The translations under genes were made by a program, and so were the position numbers. DNA of 64,000 nt from Dysosmobacter segnis (lineage in GTDB: Bacteria > Bacillota > Clostridia > Oscillospirales > Oscillospiraceae): NCBI RefSeq assembly GCF_014297285.1, contig NZ_JACOQI010000002.1, positions 186,001 through 250,000 of the forward strand, in the 5' to 3' direction. Below, in pieces: positions 2,655 through 35,699 of this stretch. The notes under the pieces were generated by a model, which was not told the DNA's origin, ran no database searches, and was given only the letters and a program-made list of their open reading frames with translations. Positions within the stretch are counted from its first letter, which is position 1. Every line of letters begins with the position of its first letter.

Positions 2655-2663
2655 ATGGGCATG

Positions 2664-2737
2664 GTGATCATATGACTGACGGAAGTGGATGTTACCACAT
2701 GGAGTATGATCGTGAAACCAGCCGACCGTCTGGGCAG
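2664..2737 (+). promoter_or_regulatory. ZTP riboswitch (pfl motif) upstream of pflA
   Basis: The aptamer shows P1 pairing 2666-2672 (GATCATA) with 2705-2711 (TATGATC), the conserved TGACTGACGG after the P1 5' strand, a small P2 hairpin GTGG/CCAC (2685-2688 with 2695-2698), CATGGAG before the P1 3' strand, and then the hallmark pseudoknot domain GCCGACCGTCTGGGCA at 2721-2736. This motif was first described upstream of pfl genes. It senses ZMP/ZTP, which signals shortage of 10-formyl-tetrahydrofolate. Here it would turn on formate production for one-carbon metabolism. Assignment is by motif recall, not by a covariance search. Confidence 0.85.
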
Positions 2738-2770
2738 AAAAAGCTCAGATCGGTGCGGCTTTTTCTTTTT
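2721..2770 (+). terminator. riboswitch expression-platform terminator before pflA
   Basis: 2721-2732 (GCCGACCGTCTG) can pair, with two bulged bases, with 2746-2759 (CAGATCGGTGCGGC), followed by TTTTTCTTTTT at 2760-2770. The 5' half of the stem is the conserved ZTP pseudoknot strand, so ligand-bound aptamer and terminator are mutually exclusive. This is an ON switch in which ZTP permits read-through into pflA. Confidence 0.8.
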
Positions 2771-8761: not shown

Positions 8762-8834
8762 GGAATATACGGAAAATCTGTCCCTTGAAAATAGGACGTC
8801 TCCGAACAGCCAATGATAGCGCTTCACAAAAAAT

Positions 8835-8980
8835 TCTTGTGACAGTCCGGCAGATCTTCTCTGCCGACCCAGCATCCGGACAACAGGCATTGTCCTGACA
8901 CTTCGGCGGTGGCCCCTTTCCCACTCCACGGCTGCTCTGGCCTTGTGGAGAGTACTGATGGATACCGCGCCTCTATCAAG
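8835..8980 (-). promoter_or_regulatory. lysine riboswitch (L box)
   Basis: On the minus strand the leader carries the L-box conserved blocks in order: GATAGAGGCGCGG, CAGTA, a GTGGAGTGGGAAAGGGG block, CACCGCCGAAGTG, a stem-loop GGACAATGCCTGTTGTCC, GATGCTGGGTC, and the closing GACTGTCACAAG. Order and spacing fit the five-helix lysine aptamer. Together with the terminator downstream it should shut off the ABC transporter when lysine is plentiful. Recognised by motif; no covariance score computed. Confidence 0.9.
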
Positions 8981-8998
8981 CGATTCAATTTTGACTGC

Positions 8999-9237: not shown

Positions 9238-10449
9238 ATGAATGTCATCGTTATCGGCGGCGGGGCCTCCGGCCTCATGGCCGCCATCACCGCCGCCAAG
9301 GGCGGCCATAGCGTCACGCTGCTGGAGCGGCAAGCCCGTGTTGGCCGCAAGCTGCTCTCCACCGGCAACGGCCGCTGCAACCTCACCAATCTGAACATGG
9401 GCCTTCCCTACTATCACGGACAGGACGCCGCTTTCATCCGCCCCGCCTTTGAAGCGCTGAGTCTGGATGCCACGCTGGATTTCTTTCACGGTCTGGGCCT
9501 GCTGACAACGGCGGAGGACAATGGCCGGGTCTATCCCTACTCCGATCAGGCAGGCAGCGTGGTGGACGTGCTGCGCTTCGCCGCCGACGCCGCCGGGGTC
9601 ATGACCCGCGCCGGGTTCGAGGTGACGGGCCTGAAGAAAACAAAACGGGGGTTCACCGTCCTCTCCGCCGAGGAAACCCTCCCGGCGGACCGGGTCATCG
9701 TCTGCTGCGGCGGCATGGCCGGCGGTAAGCTGGGCGGGACCCGCAGCGGCTATGAGCTGCTGCAATCCTTGGGCCACAGCGTCACCAAGCTGTATCCCGC
9801 ACTGGTGCAGATCAAGACGGACAACACCTTTGTCAAGGCTTTGAAGGGCGTCCGGGCCAATGCTGACCTCCGGCTCTGTCGGAATCGGGACGCCGTGTCT
9901 GCCAGCCGGGGTGAGGTTCAGTTTACCGACTTCGGTGTCAGCGGCCCCGCCGTGTTCGAGCTGTCCCGGGCCGCCGCCACGGAAAAAGGGCCTCTGACAC
10001 TTCATATCGATTTGCTGCCCCAGCTTTCCACACCGGAAATCGAGGAGCTGCTCCGCAGGCGGCTTAGTTCCATGCCGGAGCTGACCACGGAAAACCTGTT
10101 GGCCGGGGTGCTCCACAACCGTCTGGGCCGCACGGTCCTGCGGTATGCAGGCTACGGGCTGACGGACCCGGTGGCATCCCTGTCTCCCGCCGATCTGCGG
10201 AAGATCGCGGGAGCCGCCAAGGACTTCGCTCTGCCGGTGGTCAGCGTACTGGGCTTTGACGGGGCGCAGGTCACAGCCGGCGGTATCCGTACCGCCGAGT
10301 TTGACCCCAAAACCCTCCAAAGCCGCCTGGTGCCGGGACTATACGCCGCCGGTGAGGTGCTGGACATCGACGGTGACTGCGGCGGCTACAATCTGCAATG
10401 GGCCTGGTCCAGCGGCTATCTGGCCGGCCTGCTGAAAAGCGGAACATAG
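9238..10449 (+). CDS. NAD(P)/FAD-dependent oxidoreductase, HI0933/BaiN family
   Basis: 403-aa flavoprotein. The N-terminal Rossmann FAD motif is MNVIVIGGGASGLMAAITAA, followed by VTLLERQARVGRKLLSTGNGRCNLTN, the family signature. The C-terminus has the FAD-closing segment GLYAAGEVLDIDGDCGGYNLQWA. I chose the ATG at 9238 because GAAAGGAG lies 7 nt upstream. The family includes BaiN, reported as a bile-acid flavin reductase in Clostridium scindens, but most members have unknown substrates. A role in bile-acid reduction here would be speculation. Monocistronic, with its own promoter and terminator. Confidence 0.9.
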   Translation: MNVIVIGGGASGLMAAITAAKGGHSVTLLERQARVGRKLLSTGNGRCNLTNLNMGLPYYHGQDAAFIRPAFEALSLDATLDFFHGLGLLTTAEDNGRVYPYSDQAGSVVDVLRFAADAAGVMTRAGFEVTGLKKTKRGFTVLSAEETLPADRVIVCCGGMAGGKLGGTRSGYELLQSLGHSVTKLYPALVQIKTDNTFVKALKGVRANADLRLCRNRDAVSASRGEVQFTDFGVSGPAVFELSRAAATEKGPLTLHIDLLPQLSTPEIEELLRRRLSSMPELTTENLLAGVLHNRLGRTVLRYAGYGLTDPVASLSPADLRKIAGAAKDFALPVVSVLGFDGAQVTAGGIRTAEFDPKTLQSRLVPGLYAAGEVLDIDGDCGGYNLQWAWSSGYLAGLLKSGT

Positions 10450-28042: not shown

Positions 28043-29068
28043 TTACAGATCAGAAAGCGCGGCTTGCTTCTGCCCGACGATTTCACCGTTCATGCAATAC
28101 TTGCCGATTTCGTCCTCATCGTCGATATCCTTGTAGATATCCACCATTTCCAAGCTCTCCCATCCAATGATGGTCTTGATCACAGAATCGGGCAGGTTTG
28201 CCTTGGCAAGTGAAGTCGTAAAGAAGTGCCGGAGACTATGCCAATACACAGGGATACCCAGAATATTGGAGAAGGTCTCCGCCCAGCTGTTCAGTGTAGA
28301 GATAGGCACCGTCTTCGTAGGATCGTCCCTGTCAGGGAACAGCCACTCACTTTCGATACCCAGATCTGCCCGCTTCGCCATCCACGCATCGAAGTAGGGC
28401 TTGAAAGGCTTTGCCAGCACATAGCAGGTAAGCATTTTTCCATTGACGCCCTTGCCCTTCGTTCTGACTTTCTCAGGCGTTTTGTAAAACGTGCCATAGA
28501 TGATGTTCTCGTCGTCGAAGTACGACACTTTGAATCGCGTCAGCTCAGACTTGCGCCGTCCAGAATACCGCGCCAAAGCGAAGCAGCAGGCTTTCTCGTA
28601 CTGCCCGCGCTCCATCAGATAGTCCAAGAGTTGATCTGCCTGTTCGTCGGTCAGCACCGTCTTCTCTCTGGTCGGCTCATTTACCGGATTCTCGATCTTG
28701 CGGACGATTGACCGGAAGTTGGGAAGCTCGTCATCCAAGATTGCTTCGATGTAGTTGCTCAAAGATGACAACGTACTCTTCAGCCGGCGCACACGGGCGG
28801 GAGAGTTCTCATTGTTCCGCAACAGCCAGTTTTGATACGAGATGATGTCACGCTTGCTAATCTCCGGGAAATACTTGTTGTCCGCATTTTGGAGTACCCA
28901 CACGAAGAAAATATACAAATCGCTCGTATATGCCTTAACGGTGGAATCCGCCTTGCCGATACTCCGCAGGTATTCCAGAAAATCGTTCATCAGCCGAATG
29001 TTCTTCGGGTTGATCTGGGCGATCAATTCCGGGCTGGTGATCTTGTTTTGTCTCGTCTTCCGTCCCAT
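28043..29068 (-). CDS. int: tyrosine recombinase (prophage integrase)
   Basis: 341 aa. An N-terminal SAM-like core-binding domain (NDFLEYLRSIGKADSTVKAY) and a C-terminal catalytic domain with Arg172 (SGRRKSEL), His277 and Arg280 (YWHSLRH), Trp303 (IIGWES) and nucleophile Tyr312 (DIYKDI). It catalyses site-specific integration and excision, here presumably at the metG linker. I chose the ATG at 29068 because GGAGG lies 8 nt upstream. Unusually, it sits co-directional inside the late lysis region, 3.4 kb from attL, between lysin and small membrane genes, rather than divergent at the end. Confidence 0.93.
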   Translation of the reverse strand: MGRKTRQNKITSPELIAQINPKNIRLMNDFLEYLRSIGKADSTVKAYTSDLYIFFVWVLQNADNKYFPEISKRDIISYQNWLLRNNENSPARVRRLKSTLSSLSNYIEAILDDELPNFRSIVRKIENPVNEPTREKTVLTDEQADQLLDYLMERGQYEKACCFALARYSGRRKSELTRFKVSYFDDENIIYGTFYKTPEKVRTKGKGVNGKMLTCYVLAKPFKPYFDAWMAKRADLGIESEWLFPDRDDPTKTVPISTLNSWAETFSNILGIPVYWHSLRHFFTTSLAKANLPDSVIKTIIGWESLEMVDIYKDIDDEDEIGKYCMNGEIVGQKQAALSDL

Positions 29069-29095
29069 AACTCTCACCTCCTTTTTCGTATGAAG

Positions 29096-31118: not shown

Positions 31119-32282
31119 TTACGCGGACTTCTTTAGTTGTTCTTGCTCTCTATACCGACTAAACATGGCATAGTGCAGCCGTCTCAACCGTAACAACCTG
31201 CCGTGATCGTCAAAATTCCTGTAGTACGCAGTCTGGCATTCCATGTATTGATCTATCTCGAAAAGTGTTTTCCTACCGGCAAGATATTCCCTATGGAACA
31301 TTTTCAACTTACGCCTTGCACGCTTCACACCATCACGGCTACCGTTGATCTTGATTGCTCCGGTTTCCGTCAATGTGAAACGAGCTTTACAAAACCTAAA
31401 CGGCTTTGTAAGCGGAATGATTTTACACTTTTTCTTATTCACCCTAATACCGAAAGACTCAAACTTTTTAACAATATCTCTCGCTATCTGTTTCAGTTCT
31501 TCAATATCATGGTAAATAACATAGTAGTCATCCATGTAGTGACCCGCACAGTGAAGACCAAGTTGACACTTGATATAGTTGTCAATCGCACTTGGGAGAG
31601 ACACCATCTCCTGCTGGCTTGGTTCCACACCCAAAGGCATACCTCTACCAGGCGCATTGCCATAAGGCGCATAGTCAATGATCGCGTCTGCCACTGCTCG
31701 GATCTGCGGATCAAACATTACTTGCTGATGCCGACGATAGATGATATCTCTATTAGCATTCGGAAAGAAGCTCTTCAAGTCAAGAAGGAATATACCTCCT
31801 TCTCTTCCATAGCGTCGGTAATGCCATGCAAGCTGCTGTGTTAGCCTGCGGAAATGCCAATGTAGTCCTTTACCTCTCTGACTTGCTCCATTGTCGCAAA
31901 TCATACTCGGATGATAAAGGGGAATGAGGACTTCATTTGTGAAAACCTTATGAATCTGCCGATCGTCGATGTGCGGGGCATCAATCGGTCGCACTTTTCC
32001 ACGCTCAGAAATGGTGAAATGTGCGCACTTCTTTTGTTTCCACTTACCATCCAAAACTTCACGCCGTCTCTTGGCTGTTCCAGAAAATAAGTGAAGCTCA
32101 AAGTTTTGCGTACTCTGTTTCCAACGGACACCCGTACAACATTTTCTCCCATAGAAGAACATATCGTGATAGTTGAAAACATCTTGAAGTGTACCGACTT
32201 CTTTGCTTCGTTTCAGTCTGTTTGCTTGTCGCTTTGATTTCCTGCGATGATATCTTGCCTCTCGGCGTTCTTCGCTTGTCAT
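31119..32282 (-). CDS. diversity-generating retroelement reverse transcriptase
   Basis: 387 aa. Reverse-transcriptase palm motifs are clear: motif A IFLLDLKSFFPNA (Asp168), motif 4 MPLGVEPSQQEM (residues 215-225) and the catalytic YMDDYYVI (Tyr249-Asp252). The LGxxxSQ form of motif 4, in place of QGxxxSP of retroviral and group II intron enzymes, is diagnostic of DGR reverse transcriptases and is linked to their adenine-specific infidelity. The basic N-terminus (RRKSKRQANRLKRSK) probably binds RNA. There is no maturase, RNase H or endonuclease domain, as expected. It lies downstream of the template repeat and the Avd-like gene. It copies the template RNA into mutated cDNA that replaces the variable repeat. 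Confidence 0.97.
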   Translation of the reverse strand: MTSEERREARYHRRKSKRQANRLKRSKEVGTLQDVFNYHDMFFYGRKCCTGVRWKQSTQNFELHLFSGTAKRRREVLDGKWKQKKCAHFTISERGKVRPIDAPHIDDRQIHKVFTNEVLIPLYHPSMICDNGASQRGKGLHWHFRRLTQQLAWHYRRYGREGGIFLLDLKSFFPNANRDIIYRRHQQVMFDPQIRAVADAIIDYAPYGNAPGRGMPLGVEPSQQEMVSLPSAIDNYIKCQLGLHCAGHYMDDYYVIYHDIEELKQIARDIVKKFESFGIRVNKKKCKIIPLTKPFRFCKARFTLTETGAIKINGSRDGVKRARRKLKMFHREYLAGRKTLFEIDQYMECQTAYYRNFDDHGRLLRLRRLHYAMFSRYREQEQLKKSA

Positions 32283-32506
32283 AAAAAGTATTCGCCCTCC
32301 GCATAGTTGTCTTGTAGGTGCGCGTCTAAACTACTTTGACCCGACACATGAAACGAGGATAGCGCAAGTACCCCGCCATGCAAGCAGCGTCCGTGTAAGG
32401 TCGTCAAAGGGCAGTTTTAGGGATTTTCACCCAGGGAAGTATCTCTCCTTTTGCGAGGGTCGTCTTTCACCTATCGGTTACTCCATGTGACCCCGCATCG
32501 CAAAAT
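32283..32506 (-). ncRNA. DGR spacer region between template repeat and reverse transcriptase
   Basis: About 224 bp without a gene. In the Bordetella phage DGR the RNA just 3' of the template (Sp) folds and primes cDNA synthesis together with Avd and the RT. This stretch occupies the same place. Function here is inferred from position only. Confidence 0.5.
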
Positions 32507-32624
32507 CCGGGCGCGAGCGCAGCCGCATTCCTTGCATTGTTATTGTTGGCGCTGCCATCAGTGTTCACATTGCAGAAATTGTTATTGTTGTTGTAATTAG
32601 CAGAGCGGAGCCACCACCACGCCG
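32507..32624 (-). repeat. DGR template repeat (TR)
   Basis: 118 bp that align without gaps to 33619-33736 (offset 1,112). There are 10 mismatches, and every one is an adenine on the TR coding strand (plus-strand T at 32529, 32537, 32565, 32570, 32571, 32579, 32583, 32585, 32586, 32598). Read in the VR frame it has 13 AAY codons, including runs of five and four Asn, the usual DGR design since A-to-N changes in AAY avoid stop codons. The GC-rich 3' end (32507-32528, identical in VR) followed by a different short tail fits the IMH/IMH* boundary. It is non-coding despite a chance ORF. Confidence 0.96.
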
Positions 32625-32636
32625 CCAAAGGCGGCG
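32620..32636 (-). other. hairpin at the 5' border of the template repeat
   Basis: A perfect 7-bp stem CGCCGCC / GGCGGCG with a 3-nt loop. Its 3' arm on the minus strand contains the first 5 bases of TR. It is absent from the VR, where identity stops at the same point. It may shape the DGR RNA. Confidence 0.6.
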
Positions 32637-32679
32637 AAAACACCAAGGACACGTTTTCAGAAATACACCCAATAAAGAT

Positions 32680-33144
32680 TTAGCTCTTTTTGATTTGCCC
32701 TAACGATTTCAGAGTCCCTTTGATCAACTCATCTTCGTTGTCAATCATTTCCCCAAGACTTGCAGCCATTCTGTCTAACTTTTCCGTTGCCTCCTTCGGA
32801 GATACTGAATTTCCCTTAGAAGTTGTAAAACATCCCTCGGGGTTCTTCATTATCACGAGATAGCAATGCGTAAGTCTGACATCCAGTGCTTTTAAGGAAG
32901 CTCTTGCTTCCAGCAAATGCGCTTTGCGTAACTCAATTCTCTGATCGTCTGATGGGAAAATACTGTTCGCTTTCTCAGCATGATCCACTACTTCTCCAGC
33001 CAACTTAGCCACAGGTTCGGCCAAAAGTCTGGAATACCGTGCAGACATCCTTGTGAGAAAATTCAGCGTTTCTACATAGATTTGGTTAGCAGTATTGACA
33101 TACTCAGCCTTACTCGTAGTCCGCCTTGCTTTCAATACAGACAT
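32680..33144 (-). CDS. avd: Avd-like accessory variability determinant (DGR)
   Basis: 154 aa, almost entirely helical and basic-rich, with AEYVNTANQIYVETLNFLTR, then LAGEVVDHAEKANSIFPSDD and LLEARASLKALDVRLTHCYL, consistent with the four-helix-bundle Avd fold (S23-like). Avd forms a pentameric barrel that binds the RT and template RNA and is needed for cDNA synthesis. Somewhat longer than Bordetella Avd (128 aa), by a C-terminal extension. Its gene lies immediately 5' of the template repeat, the standard order. Identified by fold, position and context. Confidence 0.85.
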   Translation of the reverse strand: MSVLKARRTTSKAEYVNTANQIYVETLNFLTRMSARYSRLLAEPVAKLAGEVVDHAEKANSIFPSDDQRIELRKAHLLEARASLKALDVRLTHCYLVIMKNPEGCFTTSKGNSVSPKEATEKLDRMAASLGEMIDNEDELIKGTLKSLGQIKKS

Positions 33145-33176
33145 TCTTTTACCTCTCTGGTGAATGGTCTTTTGCC

Positions 33177-33365
33177 CTATTCATCTGACTTAGTTTGATT
33201 AGCAGTAATCGCTCCCTCCGCTTTTTCGACTTCTTCCAGATGTTTCAAAAGCACAAACTCGATGTAGTTTGTCATGGAGCGATGCTGTTTTGTCGCCAGC
33301 GCACCAATCTTATCAAACACCTCATCAGATAGACGCAGCGTGAAAACACGTTTGTTTGATGCCAT
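33177..33365 (-). CDS. ribbon-helix-helix protein of the DGR cassette
   Basis: 62 aa. KRVFTLRLSDEVFDKI gives the RHH beta strand and first helix, followed by RSMTNYIEFVLLKHLEEVEK as the second helix, an Arc/MetJ-like DNA-binding fold. I chose the ATG at 33365 because GGGAGG lies 5 nt upstream. It is the first gene of the DGR transcription unit, just after a terminator, so it may autoregulate the cassette; alternatively it could bind the VR region. Such a regulator is not an established core DGR component. Confidence 0.75.
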   Translation of the reverse strand: MASNKRVFTLRLSDEVFDKIGALATKQHRSMTNYIEFVLLKHLEEVEKAEGAITANQTKSDE

Positions 33366-33482
33366 ACTCAACCTCCCACTTACCTGCACATAAATATTTT
33401 AGTGCTATTTTCAGCTTTTGTATGCAGTATTTAGACTGTTAAGTGATAGCATTTTATAGGGCATTTTTCTAAAAATCGCGTC

Positions 33483-33501
33483 GGCGGCGCAAAGCGCCGC
33501 C
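33483..33501. terminator. bidirectional terminator between target gene and DGR cassette
   Basis: An 8-bp GC stem (33483-33490 with 33494-33501, 3-nt loop). The plus side is followed by TTTTGTTTTTTTG and the minus side by ATTTTTAG after 6 bases. On the minus strand it would stop late tail transcription before the DGR genes, implying that RHH-avd-TR-RT have their own promoter within 33366-33480. Confidence 0.65.
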
Positions 33502-33556
33502 TCCGCTTTTGTTTTTTTGTCTCCGTATCTGTTACCTTATCTGTCCTATCGGGAAA

Positions 33557-33578
33557 CCCGCCCATTTTCATGGGCGGG
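33557..33578 (-). other. DGR target-site hairpin/cruciform downstream of VR
   Basis: A perfect 9-bp inverted repeat (33557-33565 with 33570-33578). On the coding (minus) strand it reads CCCGCCCAT GAAA ATGGGCGGG, with a 4-nt GAAA loop. It lies 27 bp past the target gene stop. Known DGR targets carry such short hairpins with 4-nt loops just 3' of the VR, and they raise homing efficiency. There is no T-run after it, so it is not a terminator. Confidence 0.85.
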
Positions 33579-33605
33579 ATATGGATTGGGATACTCTGCG
33601 GAGGA

Positions 33606-35699
33606 TTAGACAGCAAAGCCGGGCGCGAGCGCAGCCGCATACCTTGCACTGTTATTGTTGGCGCTGCCATCAGTGTACACACCGCAGAAAGTGTAAGAGT
33701 TGTTGTAATAAGCAGAGCGGAGCCACCACCACGCCGTAGAGCCGGTAGCGTTGTGTCTATACATGACCCTGCTGTTACCGGAAGAGTAATAGGCGTACTG
33801 CTTCTGGTAGTTCTGCTCATACTGGTTAGCATAATAACGAGTGCCCTGTACCTCGAACTCAGCCAGCAGGAACAGATAGTCGGTGAATGCCTTGACATTC
33901 GCAGCCACATTGGAGCTGTTGCCAACGGCATCGGCGTATTTGGTAACGCCCTTCATAACCGCTCTCAGGTCAGCAGGAAGCGCAGCCATCAGCGTATTCG
34001 CAACAGGGTTTGTAGCACAAGTGGCACTTGCGTTATAACCAACTCTGGATGTAGTTACAGTAGAACCGTAGCCAGAAGGAGGCACATCGGTACTACCCAA
34101 AACATCGTAACGCAGGTCACAACCAGCCCAGCCACCATAGTTATAGTTGCCCCAATGGTTCATATTGAAATACTTTGTACCATTGGTATAATAGCTATTG
34201 TAGCCACTGTCAATCAGGCCAATCAACCTACTACTGATCTTACCAATCTGGAAGTGAATCCTGTTGCTGCCCTCGACAGAGCTGTTGTGGTCAAAGCCCA
34301 AAATAAAAACATCAACAGACAGGTTGGAAAGAGAAAGCGTTCCAACTGTACCGTTGATGGTAATGGTCTTTGTTGCGCCGACTGACCAGTATGTGCTTGC
34401 CAAACCAGCCGCAGCGATCTTGCTGATATCTTCCCAAGAGCAGTCGTTCAATGCAGTTCCGACAGCAGGAAGGAACTCCGCAGACACCGCGACCGTCTTA
34501 CTGCCAGGGGCAGTATGGTTTGTACCAGCGGCTACACTGATAGTGATTTTCGCCGTACCAGTCTTATCGTTCACGCTTTGGATAGTCACCACGTTCCCGC
34601 TGACAGAAACCGTAGCAACACTGGCGTCACTGGTTTGTGCGGAAATTGCGCCGTCGCCGGCGCGGGTAACGGTGACTGTCTTGCTTTTGGCCGAACTATT
34701 CAGAACTACGCTCGTCGCACTCAGACTCAAAGAGCCTGCTGCCTTACTGATAGCCCAGCGTACCGTCTTAGCAGATGTGCTGCCGTCAGACCAGCAATAA
34801 TCGTCCTTGGGAGTGAAGGCGGCGTTGTAGCTTCCGGCATTGATGCCGCTTGTAACTCCACCCAATGTCATTTTGGAGCTATCATAGTTGCTCCATGACG
34901 GGCTTTGAGTATTGCCCGTATATGTCAGGCTACCTCTCTGACTGGGAACCGTAGAGATTGCAAGTCGATTAGGTACGCCGGTGACACGATTGGCAGTGCT
35001 CGTGTTTACTGCTCCGTCTGTAGAAGTCGGGAAGAACGACACATAATAGGTCACTCCGTTTTGCAGACCGGTAACAATCAGCGGGCTACTGGCATACTGA
35101 TTGCGAGTCGTTACCACCAGCCGATATGCAGCATCCACGTCGTCGGGATCAGTAGCATAACCGCCCGCCTTAACTACTACAGTAGTCTTCGCCCAGGTCG
35201 CCAGCGTTACGCCGTCATTCACCATGGTAGCCGAAGGATCAGTCCATTTCAGCGCCAGCTTGCCGTTACCAGCGGCAATAGCACTCATGCTGGACACATT
35301 GCCAACTGCCACGGGAGTGGGTGTCTTGTTGAACTCGTCGTCTGCGCTGTCCGTATAGGAACCTTGCGTAGTGTAGGGGAAGAACTTATAGTAGTAGGTT
35401 ACGCCGTCTGTCAGGCCGGAATCGCAGAAATATTTATTTTGATACGCATTGCGAGTCTTGCTATCCAAGACTACCGTACCATCACGACGGCTTACGGGGG
35501 CACTACCTGCCTTACGCACCAGCAGAGTACCGCCCCATGCTGCCAGTGTGGAGCCGGCCACAACCAGATCGTCAGGGTCAGTCCACTTCACATAAACCTT
35601 GCCGGCAGCGGCCAAGGTCTGAATATCTGTCACAGCGGCCAGGGTCAGACCGCCTGTTCCGCCTCCACCACCAGAGGGGAAATTGCCAAGAATAGGCAT
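33606..35699 (-). CDS. DGR target protein: tail lectin with Fn3/Ig-like repeats and variable C-type-lectin-fold C-terminus
   Basis: 697 aa. A Gly-rich start (NFPSGGGGGTGGL), two fibronectin-III-like repeats (about 18-115 and 128-245; DGVTYYYKFFPYT and NGVTYYVSFFPTS are matching strands), a further beta module (about 250-325), a BIG2-like Ig domain (about 330-415; TVTVTRAGDGAISAQTSDAS), and a C-terminal DUF6273-type formylglycine-enzyme/C-type-lectin-like domain (about 420-697) ending GSTAWWWLRSAYY...ALAPGFAV. The variable repeat encodes residues 655-694. Compared with the template, residues 664, 668, 669, 670, 673, 675, 684 and 687 are changed (all Asn in TR). It follows the other tail fibre genes, so I infer a receptor-binding tail protein comparable to Mtd of Bordetella phage. 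Confidence 0.93.
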   Translation of the reverse strand: MPILGNFPSGGGGGTGGLTLAAVTDIQTLAAAGKVYVKWTDPDDLVVAGSTLAAWGGTLLVRKAGSAPVSRRDGTVVLDSKTRNAYQNKYFCDSGLTDGVTYYYKFFPYTTQGSYTDSADDEFNKTPTPVAVGNVSSMSAIAAGNGKLALKWTDPSATMVNDGVTLATWAKTTVVVKAGGYATDPDDVDAAYRLVVTTRNQYASSPLIVTGLQNGVTYYVSFFPTSTDGAVNTSTANRVTGVPNRLAISTVPSQRGSLTYTGNTQSPSWSNYDSSKMTLGGVTSGINAGSYNAAFTPKDDYCWSDGSTSAKTVRWAISKAAGSLSLSATSVVLNSSAKSKTVTVTRAGDGAISAQTSDASVATVSVSGNVVTIQSVNDKTGTAKITISVAAGTNHTAPGSKTVAVSAEFLPAVGTALNDCSWEDISKIAAAGLASTYWSVGATKTITINGTVGTLSLSNLSVDVFILGFDHNSSVEGSNRIHFQIGKISSRLIGLIDSGYNSYYTNGTKYFNMNHWGNYNYGGWAGCDLRYDVLGSTDVPPSGYGSTVTTSRVGYNASATCATNPVANTLMAALPADLRAVMKGVTKYADAVGNSSNVAANVKAFTDYLFLLAEFEVQGTRYYANQYEQNYQKQYAYYSSGNSRVMYRHNATGSTAWWWLRSAYYNNSYTFCGVYTDGSANNNSARYAAALAPGFAV
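33619..33736 (-). repeat. DGR variable repeat (VR)
   Basis: The 3' end of the target gene, aligned gaplessly to the TR at 32507-32624: 108 of 118 identical, with 10 substitutions only where TR has A on the coding strand (to T five times, G three times, C twice). Eight of the 13 AAY codons are altered, giving Tyr, Ser, Tyr, Thr, Gly, Tyr, Ser and Tyr. The stop codon lies 11 bp beyond the VR. The hairpin at 33557-33578 follows. Confidence 0.96.

Follow-up and report, generated by a model that had tools for sequence, protein, structure and literature searches.

This study concerns a 64,000-nucleotide stretch of the Dysosmobacter segnis genome (positions 186,001 to 250,000 of contig NZ_JACOQI010000002.1, hereafter the window), which carries a diversity-generating retroelement (DGR) in a prophage. 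The spacer that separates the template repeat (TR) of this element from its reverse transcriptase (RT) gene corresponded to a catalogued RNA family, Rfam RT-2 (RF03077), and RT-2 is a DGR spacer RNA. The DGR as such is a further member of a well-known class; what is new here is a DGR form bearing a ribbon-helix-helix (RHH) gene with a promoter element, and the analysis is most useful for placing RT-2. The catalogued nature of the spacer and the RHH gene with its own conserved promoter element both go beyond the first-pass annotation, which was made from the sequence alone. Very probably, the element is a complete prophage DGR whose transcript would comprise the Avd-position gene, the TR and the RT-2 RNA, the latter being predicted to bind the RT and to prime template copying.

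On the minus strand of 31119-35699, the parts followed one another in the transcription order target gene with variable repeat (VR), hairpin, terminator-like hairpin, promoter-like element, RHH gene, Avd-position gene, TR, spacer and RT (Table 1). The initial proposal of a complete DGR within a tail module was supported, all named parts being present in the order first stated.

Table 1. Features of the DGR cassette and its surroundings, in window positions (ORF, open reading frame; nt, nucleotides)
Feature	Position	Strand	Basis
DGR-type reverse transcriptase, 387 amino acids	31119..32282	-	ORF, Pfam, PHROG, PDB sequence match
RT-2 RNA (RF03077), TR-RT spacer	32274-32495	-	182.6 bits vs cut-off 40, model 1-222 of 222
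AGUA-hairpin-GAAA module in spacer RNA	32465..32482	-	RT-2 consensus, sequence
Template repeat (TR)	32503-32624	-	repeat comparison with VR
Avd-position gene, 154 amino acids	32680..33144	-	conserved in family; similarity to Avd remote only
RHH (Arc/CopG-like) gene	33177..33365	-	Pfam Arc; ORF listing starts at GTG 33389
Candidate -10 box TAAAAT	33396..33401	-	read from sequence
34-bp promoter/operator-like element upstream of RHH	33418..33451	-	26/30 consensus letters; predicted
Terminator-like GC hairpin then T run, past target gene	33471..33501	-	sequence; predicted only
VR-proximal hairpin, 9-bp GC-rich stem, GAAA loop	33557..33578	-	sequence; 36 nt past VR end
Variable repeat (VR)	33615-33736	-	11/122 positions unlike TR, 11/11 at TR adenines
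Target gene, 697 amino acids, C-terminal DUF6273	33606..35699	-	ORF, Pfam DUF6273 E 4.5e-11; VR at 3' end

In the window, RT-2 started 7 nt past the TR end. Among the relatives scanned with the RT-2 model, 15/15 displayed a match, which began 7 to 23 nt past the TR end in the 13 with a located TR. RT-2 was likewise present in 38/40 viral records, the two misses (loci L004 and L033) being contigs that start just before the RT, and in all eight genomes behind the genome loci, one of which held a second match below the cut-off. The reverse search, with RF03077 alone, covered 785 genome draws (391 from the class and 394 from the order; the draws overlap). Matches above the cut-off were recorded in 5/391 genomes of the class draw and 12/394 of the order draw. 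They corresponded to 16 distinct loci, six previously met through the RT and ten not (ten rather than 11, L132 being identical to L114). Each of the 16 had an RT, a TR/VR pair and an Avd-position gene, the distance from TR end to RNA start being at most 31 nt in 15 and 75 nt in L128. Since 16/16 loci found through the RNA lay within DGRs, RT-2 is a DGR RNA. Six other matches were below the cut-off, with an RT in all six, TR/VR pairs in three and an Avd-position gene in one, and no RF03077 match was obtained in 14 well-known control genomes. The title of the Rfam entry names merely RT-2, and placement in the DGR spacer is a step of the present analysis. Our literature search found no printed link between RT-2 and DGRs; the paper defining RT-2 (Weinberg et al. 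2017) and the Rfam text, which may already state it, were outside that search. In the available part of a DGR paper citing Weinberg, the citation concerns two DUF proteins and not RT-2.

The RNA alignment comprised 52 of the 62 non-redundant spacers. Among the ten left out, L093 and L103 had a TR cut short by the repeat finder, and L024, L070, L086, L113, L128, L136, L137 and L138 were long, offset or distant. RNAalifold predicted 28 pairs from the 52 spacers, and in 22 of them both partners had changed in one or more sequences. In the predicted outer helix, a CCUUU stretch past the TR pairs with a GGAGG located 13 nt before the ATG of the RT, and double changes were observed in four of these five pairs. 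As the occupant of the stretch between TR and RT in a complete DGR, RT-2 is likely the RNA dock for rewriting the tail gene.

TR and VR displayed 91% identity over 122 nt, and every one of the 11 mismatches was a coding-strand TR adenine, an outcome with a chance probability of 1.4e-7 given 33 A in 122. The changes were A to T (five), A to C (three) and A to G (three). In frame, 9/40 codons were changed: eight were AAY Asn codons, which became Tyr (four), Ser (two), Thr and Gly, and the ninth change was silent. The VR ended 9 nt short of the end of the target ORF. The target had been described as an Fn3/Ig/lectin protein; at the C-terminus, where a DGR target would have a C-type-lectin-like domain, Pfam recognised DUF6273, and no Fn3 or Ig model attained E 0.001 in the target of the window itself. 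Among the targets of relatives, Pfam recorded Big_2 and He_PIG in L021 and Big_3 in L083. A PDB sequence search with the target protein gave no match of note. The RT started 220 nt past the TR and matched Pfam RVT_1 (E 5.5e-14) and the PHROG reverse transcriptase (E 1.4e-63). Both motifs read at first pass, LGVEPSQ and YMDD, were present in its translation; SQ motifs of the LGVEPSQ type are a mark of DGR RTs.

The VR-proximal hairpin was recovered as announced, between the VR and the RHH gene. A perfect stem of at least seven pairs within 110 nt of the VR occurred in 33/52 non-redundant loci, against 1.6 expected, and the loops of these 33 hairpins were of the GNNA form in 28 cases and fitted GRNA in 22. 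The rule described for phage DGRs is a GRNA loop on a 7-10 bp stem shortly past the VR, with a VR-hairpin distance of 4-34 bp in the examples given (PMC3240598). The hairpin of the window, with its 9-bp stem and GAAA loop 36 nt past the VR, agrees with this rule.

Scans based on the RT yielded 80 loci in viral records and 24 in genomes; ten more came from scanning with the Avd-position protein. In the resulting 115 loci (window included), an RT was recognised by profile in 113 and an adenine-biased TR/VR pair in 88; 13 of the 25 loci without such a pair were also without a detected Avd-position gene, mostly contigs starting near the RT. TR/VR mismatches in the 88 loci were at A in 1456/1485 cases, a total biased upward by the finder, which took only pairs with at least 75% of the mismatches at one base. 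Because this filter biases the overall share of A, weight was put on single cases and near-identical pairs. Eight pairs of near-identical cassettes differed in the VR, 158/162 of the differences being at TR adenines. Sister cassettes L001 and L002, the closest to the window in the RT tree together with L005, were identical over 1501 nt of cassette and 400 nt of VR flanks and displayed 18 VR differences, 18/18 at TR adenines. The same was observed for L050/L068 (16/16), L056/L057 (26/26), L078/L079 (23/23), L045/L047 (23/23) and L021/L096 (17/17), with slightly lower shares for L014/L016 (19/20) and L083/L084 (16/19, together with 25 flank differences). Near-identical pairs without VR difference were also present, some being a single record fetched twice. 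Cassette relatives occurred mostly in Clostridia genomes.

Several of these loci displayed particularities of their own. Locus L113, which has an RT-2 RNA, comes from a bin labelled Desulfovibrionaceae, a family outside Bacillota, through a binning error or transfer. Comparison of the L096 and L021 TRs (both at 9630-9758) revealed six L021 TR adenines replaced in L096, 6/6 by the letters of L096's own VR, and both TR differences between L083 and L084 behaved in the same way; judging from the letters exchanged, these changes look like VR-to-TR back-conversion eroding template adenines. Two Avd-position genes, two RT-2 RNAs and one RT were found in L054 (196-4566), where the finder located no TR/VR pair; this is perhaps a tandem cassette with a single common RT. 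A single TR was accompanied by two VRs in L078 and L086, and the repeats of L130, L131 and L142 were, as found, only about 50-70 nt long.

The RHH gene of the first-pass annotation was borne out by a Pfam Arc match (E 2.7e-4, 21.1 bits vs a cut-off of 20.4). Comparison with relatives points to the ATG at 33365 as the probable start of the gene, rather than the GTG at 33389. The relatives displayed RHH_7 or Arc below the cut-off, and neither in 2/9. An element of consensus TGCTATCACTTGACAGGT-N4-GACTGCATACAA was located upstream of the RHH gene. It reached 21 to 30 of 30 letters in 23/23 RHH loci (11 non-redundant) and scored at most 18 in the 66 RHH-less intervals (0/66); L038 (element 25/30) was excluded from both groups, and L093 was without measurable interval. 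Neither gene nor element was present in L006, sister of the RHH-bearing L097. In an RT tree of 51 non-redundant cassettes, 11 had the RHH gene; this label needed five changes, at least three of them forced by well-supported branches, and was clustered within one 21-row clade (0/500 shuffles as low). VR and Avd-position gene were 374-480 nt apart in cassettes with RHH and 42-275 nt apart in those lacking it (L093 aside). Scanning for promoters and terminators revealed no enrichment relative to shuffled sequence (promoter-like 2 vs a mean of 6.1, terminator-like 7 vs 5.4), and the promoter claim is therefore one of conservation alone. The co-occurrence of gene and element suggests that RHH is a dedicated regulator of the cassette. 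In L038 (341-1431), the promoter element precedes an RHH start that continues in frame as RT sequence from about residue 76 on; Avd-position gene, TR and spacer were not found in this natural deletion.

The consensuses of RT-2 and of Phage_DGR (RF03022) both contain AGUA, a short hairpin and GAAA inside a closing helix. This module, defined as AGTA, a hairpin of at least two pairs and GAAA, was counted over the 240 nt past the TR in 16 RT-2-negative phage DGRs (15 phages and BPP-1). It occurred in 6/16 spacers (shuffle mean 0.23, maximum 2 in 400) and within 30 nt of the TR end in 4/16 (shuffle mean 0.02, maximum 1), the BPP-1 spacer failing the strict pattern. All six loci with an RT-2 match below the cut-off displayed it. 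Since 10/16 were without it, the module is not universal. Phage_DGR itself had no match above its gathering cut-off in the window, and its search in 197 genomes of the order, also without match, was uninformative as its controls were missed too. The RT-2 consensus and the end of the BPP-1 TR have a 10-nt match (CTTGCATGGC), which was set aside as possibly due to chance. Another Rfam family, RT-15 (RF03018, 166.3 bits), was recorded in Shewanella phage vB_Sb_QDWS (L158, 2721-2991), just upstream of the TR, with the RNA ending at the TR start; from this position, RT-15 also looks DGR-linked. The QDWS DGR has two VRs.

A number of observations weigh against the reading of a complete DGR with an RT-2 spacer and its own regulator. 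The Avd-position protein matched neither curated Avd model (NF033474 and PF22296), to both of which BPP-1 Avd, the positive control, did match, and its profile (A1) gave a probability of only 0.4% against the Avd family (A2). Its family is well conserved (40 aligned sequences, 13 invariant columns). No Pfam domain was recorded among the 120 listed of its 1701 homologues, as against PF22296 in all 120 listed for BPP-1 Avd, and a PDB sequence search with the family alignment gave nothing of note (best E 0.34). Profile A1 gave 27.6% (E 6.5e-4) against the annotated Avd of Roseburia phage Shimadzu, and a broader profile (A3), built through sequence intermediates such as the Shimadzu Avd, reached 40.6% probability against A2 (E 2.9e-4 over 109 columns). 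Of the Avd-like protein first proposed, position and a remote profile link thus stand, not membership in the curated families; we read the protein as a putative divergent Avd. Of the same tenor, BPP-1's own spacer is not RT-2, the RHH loci were themselves the source of the element consensus, and the RHH gene was missing from 40/51 non-redundant cassettes and is therefore not needed for this DGR family. Because of the origin of the consensus, the RHH-less values and background matches of 19-20 elsewhere served as yardstick. Finally, no cassette near-identical to that of the window was found (best RT relative 75%), and the VR variation would apply to the window by extension, the population data coming from relatives and not from reads of its prophage. 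The same point favours regarding the window copy as a fossil that no longer works and whose VR differences are old. We consider this improbable, since the reading frames have all stayed open, RT-2 matches at 182.6 bits and the VR still departs from the TR at adenines only (11/11).

An RT of retron or group II intron origin lying near the repeats by chance has a practically negligible probability. It can invoke a match of 42 bits to a group II RT model, a weak one for a cut-off of 300 bits; the best PDB sequence match was the BPP-1 DGR RT (8ub7_A), so that by best matches alone the RT did not side with the retrons or group II introns named at first pass as grounds for refutation, and the adenine pattern of TR and VR refutes such an origin. 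The role of the RHH gene is less settled. It might be a stray passenger in an ordinary DGR, with the element as its own promoter and without any part in mutagenesis, a reading that is possible, if rather unlikely, in our estimate. Its absence from most cassettes speaks for this, and gene and element would co-travel as would any gene with its promoter. On the other hand, the RHH stop is close to the Avd-position start (-55 to +33 nt where given), so the transcript would be common to both; a terminator-like hairpin precedes the element; and no second site above 19/30 was found in the window. A toxin-antitoxin pair inserted in the cassette, formed by RHH and the next gene, is highly unlikely. A RelB-like antitoxin model of NCBIfam was matched (E 7.6e-6), albeit with 26 bits for a cut-off of 50, and the next gene is the Avd-position gene, present without RHH in 39/40 RHH-less cassettes with a plainly measurable gap.

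For the preferred reading of a complete DGR, the following course is proposed. Docking and priming by the spacer have been described (PMC12875486). Extrapolating from BPP-1, the folded spacer would dock RT and Avd, and an adenine within it would prime the complementary DNA (cDNA). Template adenines would be misread by the RT, the cDNA would replace the VR with assistance from the hairpin, and Asn codons of the DUF6273 tip would be re-coded in a protein associated with the tail and probably in contact with the host or its surroundings. Two steps are suggested by the present data: by binding the 34-bp element at the promoter of its own gene, the RHH protein may set the cassette dose, and the RT-2 closing helix may pair the GGAGG ahead of the RT start, the folded transcript acting as template and the open one as RT messenger. 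A broader view, which we offer as tentative and which may well prove wrong, is that RT-2 and Phage_DGR represent one RNA machine built in two ways and that the DGR of the window's lineage is regulated by RHH and by the fold. The AGUA-hairpin-GAAA core would then dock the RT complex in most DGRs, lying at the spacer start in gut Firmicutes DGRs and at the spacer end in BPP-1-like ones. The window's lineage would possess a dedicated RHH switch acting through an operator of its own, and the RT start site would be hidden by the RNA fold, so that the cassette chooses enzyme or template.

A catalogued RNA family is hereby tied to a testable function, recruiting and priming DGR reverse transcription beyond BPP-1, the sole studied case. 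The RNA model also provides a second route to DGRs besides RT genes, as illustrated by the ten loci that the RT search had missed. A common RT-2/Phage_DGR module, if true, would let BPP-1 structures guide work on gut-phage DGRs. The timing of DGR switch-on has been named an open matter (PMC11792537), and the RHH gene with its conserved promoter element offers a concrete handle on it.

The tail setting was confirmed by Pfam and PHROG matches. To the right of the DGR appeared a 2722-amino-acid tape measure, Dit and a prophage endopeptidase tail (the last below the Pfam cut-off), then head and packaging genes; integrase and endolysin adjoin the DGR (Pfam, PHROG). To its left, bacterial housekeeping genes occurred at 3.6-21.6 kb (pyruvate formate lyase, RimM, TrmD, anaerobic ribonucleotide reductase and acetate kinase), which places the element within a prophage. 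Together with this flank, the tail, head and packaging, integrase and endolysin genes indicate a long-tailed prophage. A megablast search found no near phage record. The tyrosine integrase (28043-29077, minus strand) lies between endolysin and DGR, not at any prophage end visible in the window. Two riboswitches were also observed, a lysine one (8809-8983, minus strand) preceding a gene for a solute-binding protein, and a ZMP/ZTP one (2662-2742, plus strand) upstream of a gene block with a pyruvate formate-lyase-like gene.

Among known systems, Faecalibacterium phages Pioen, Roos and FP_Taranis have RTs 68.5-68.8% identical to that of the window. Like the window's, the targets of Roos and Pioen are DUF6273 proteins, and their VRs vary in sequencing reads (PMC11792537). 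Pioen and Taranis share with the window adenine-type TR/VR and an RT-2 RNA ahead of the RT, which is unannotated in their records; unlike in the window, an RHH gene between target and Avd-position gene is unannotated in both (a comparison of annotations only, the RHH profile not having been applied). Phage Shimadzu displayed an RT-2 RNA of 144.9 bits, a TR/VR pair with 17/18 mismatches at A and its annotated Avd gene at the same place as the window's Avd-position gene, with an RT merely 37% identical. The DGR of Bordetella phage BPP-1 differs from that of the window by its Phage_DGR spacer (104.7 bits), an Avd of another sequence family and an RHH gene that is unannotated. Yet both share the GNRA-like hairpin rule (PMC3240598), and the BPP-1 order, target gene with VR, hairpin, avd, TR, spacer RNA and RT, is like that of the window.

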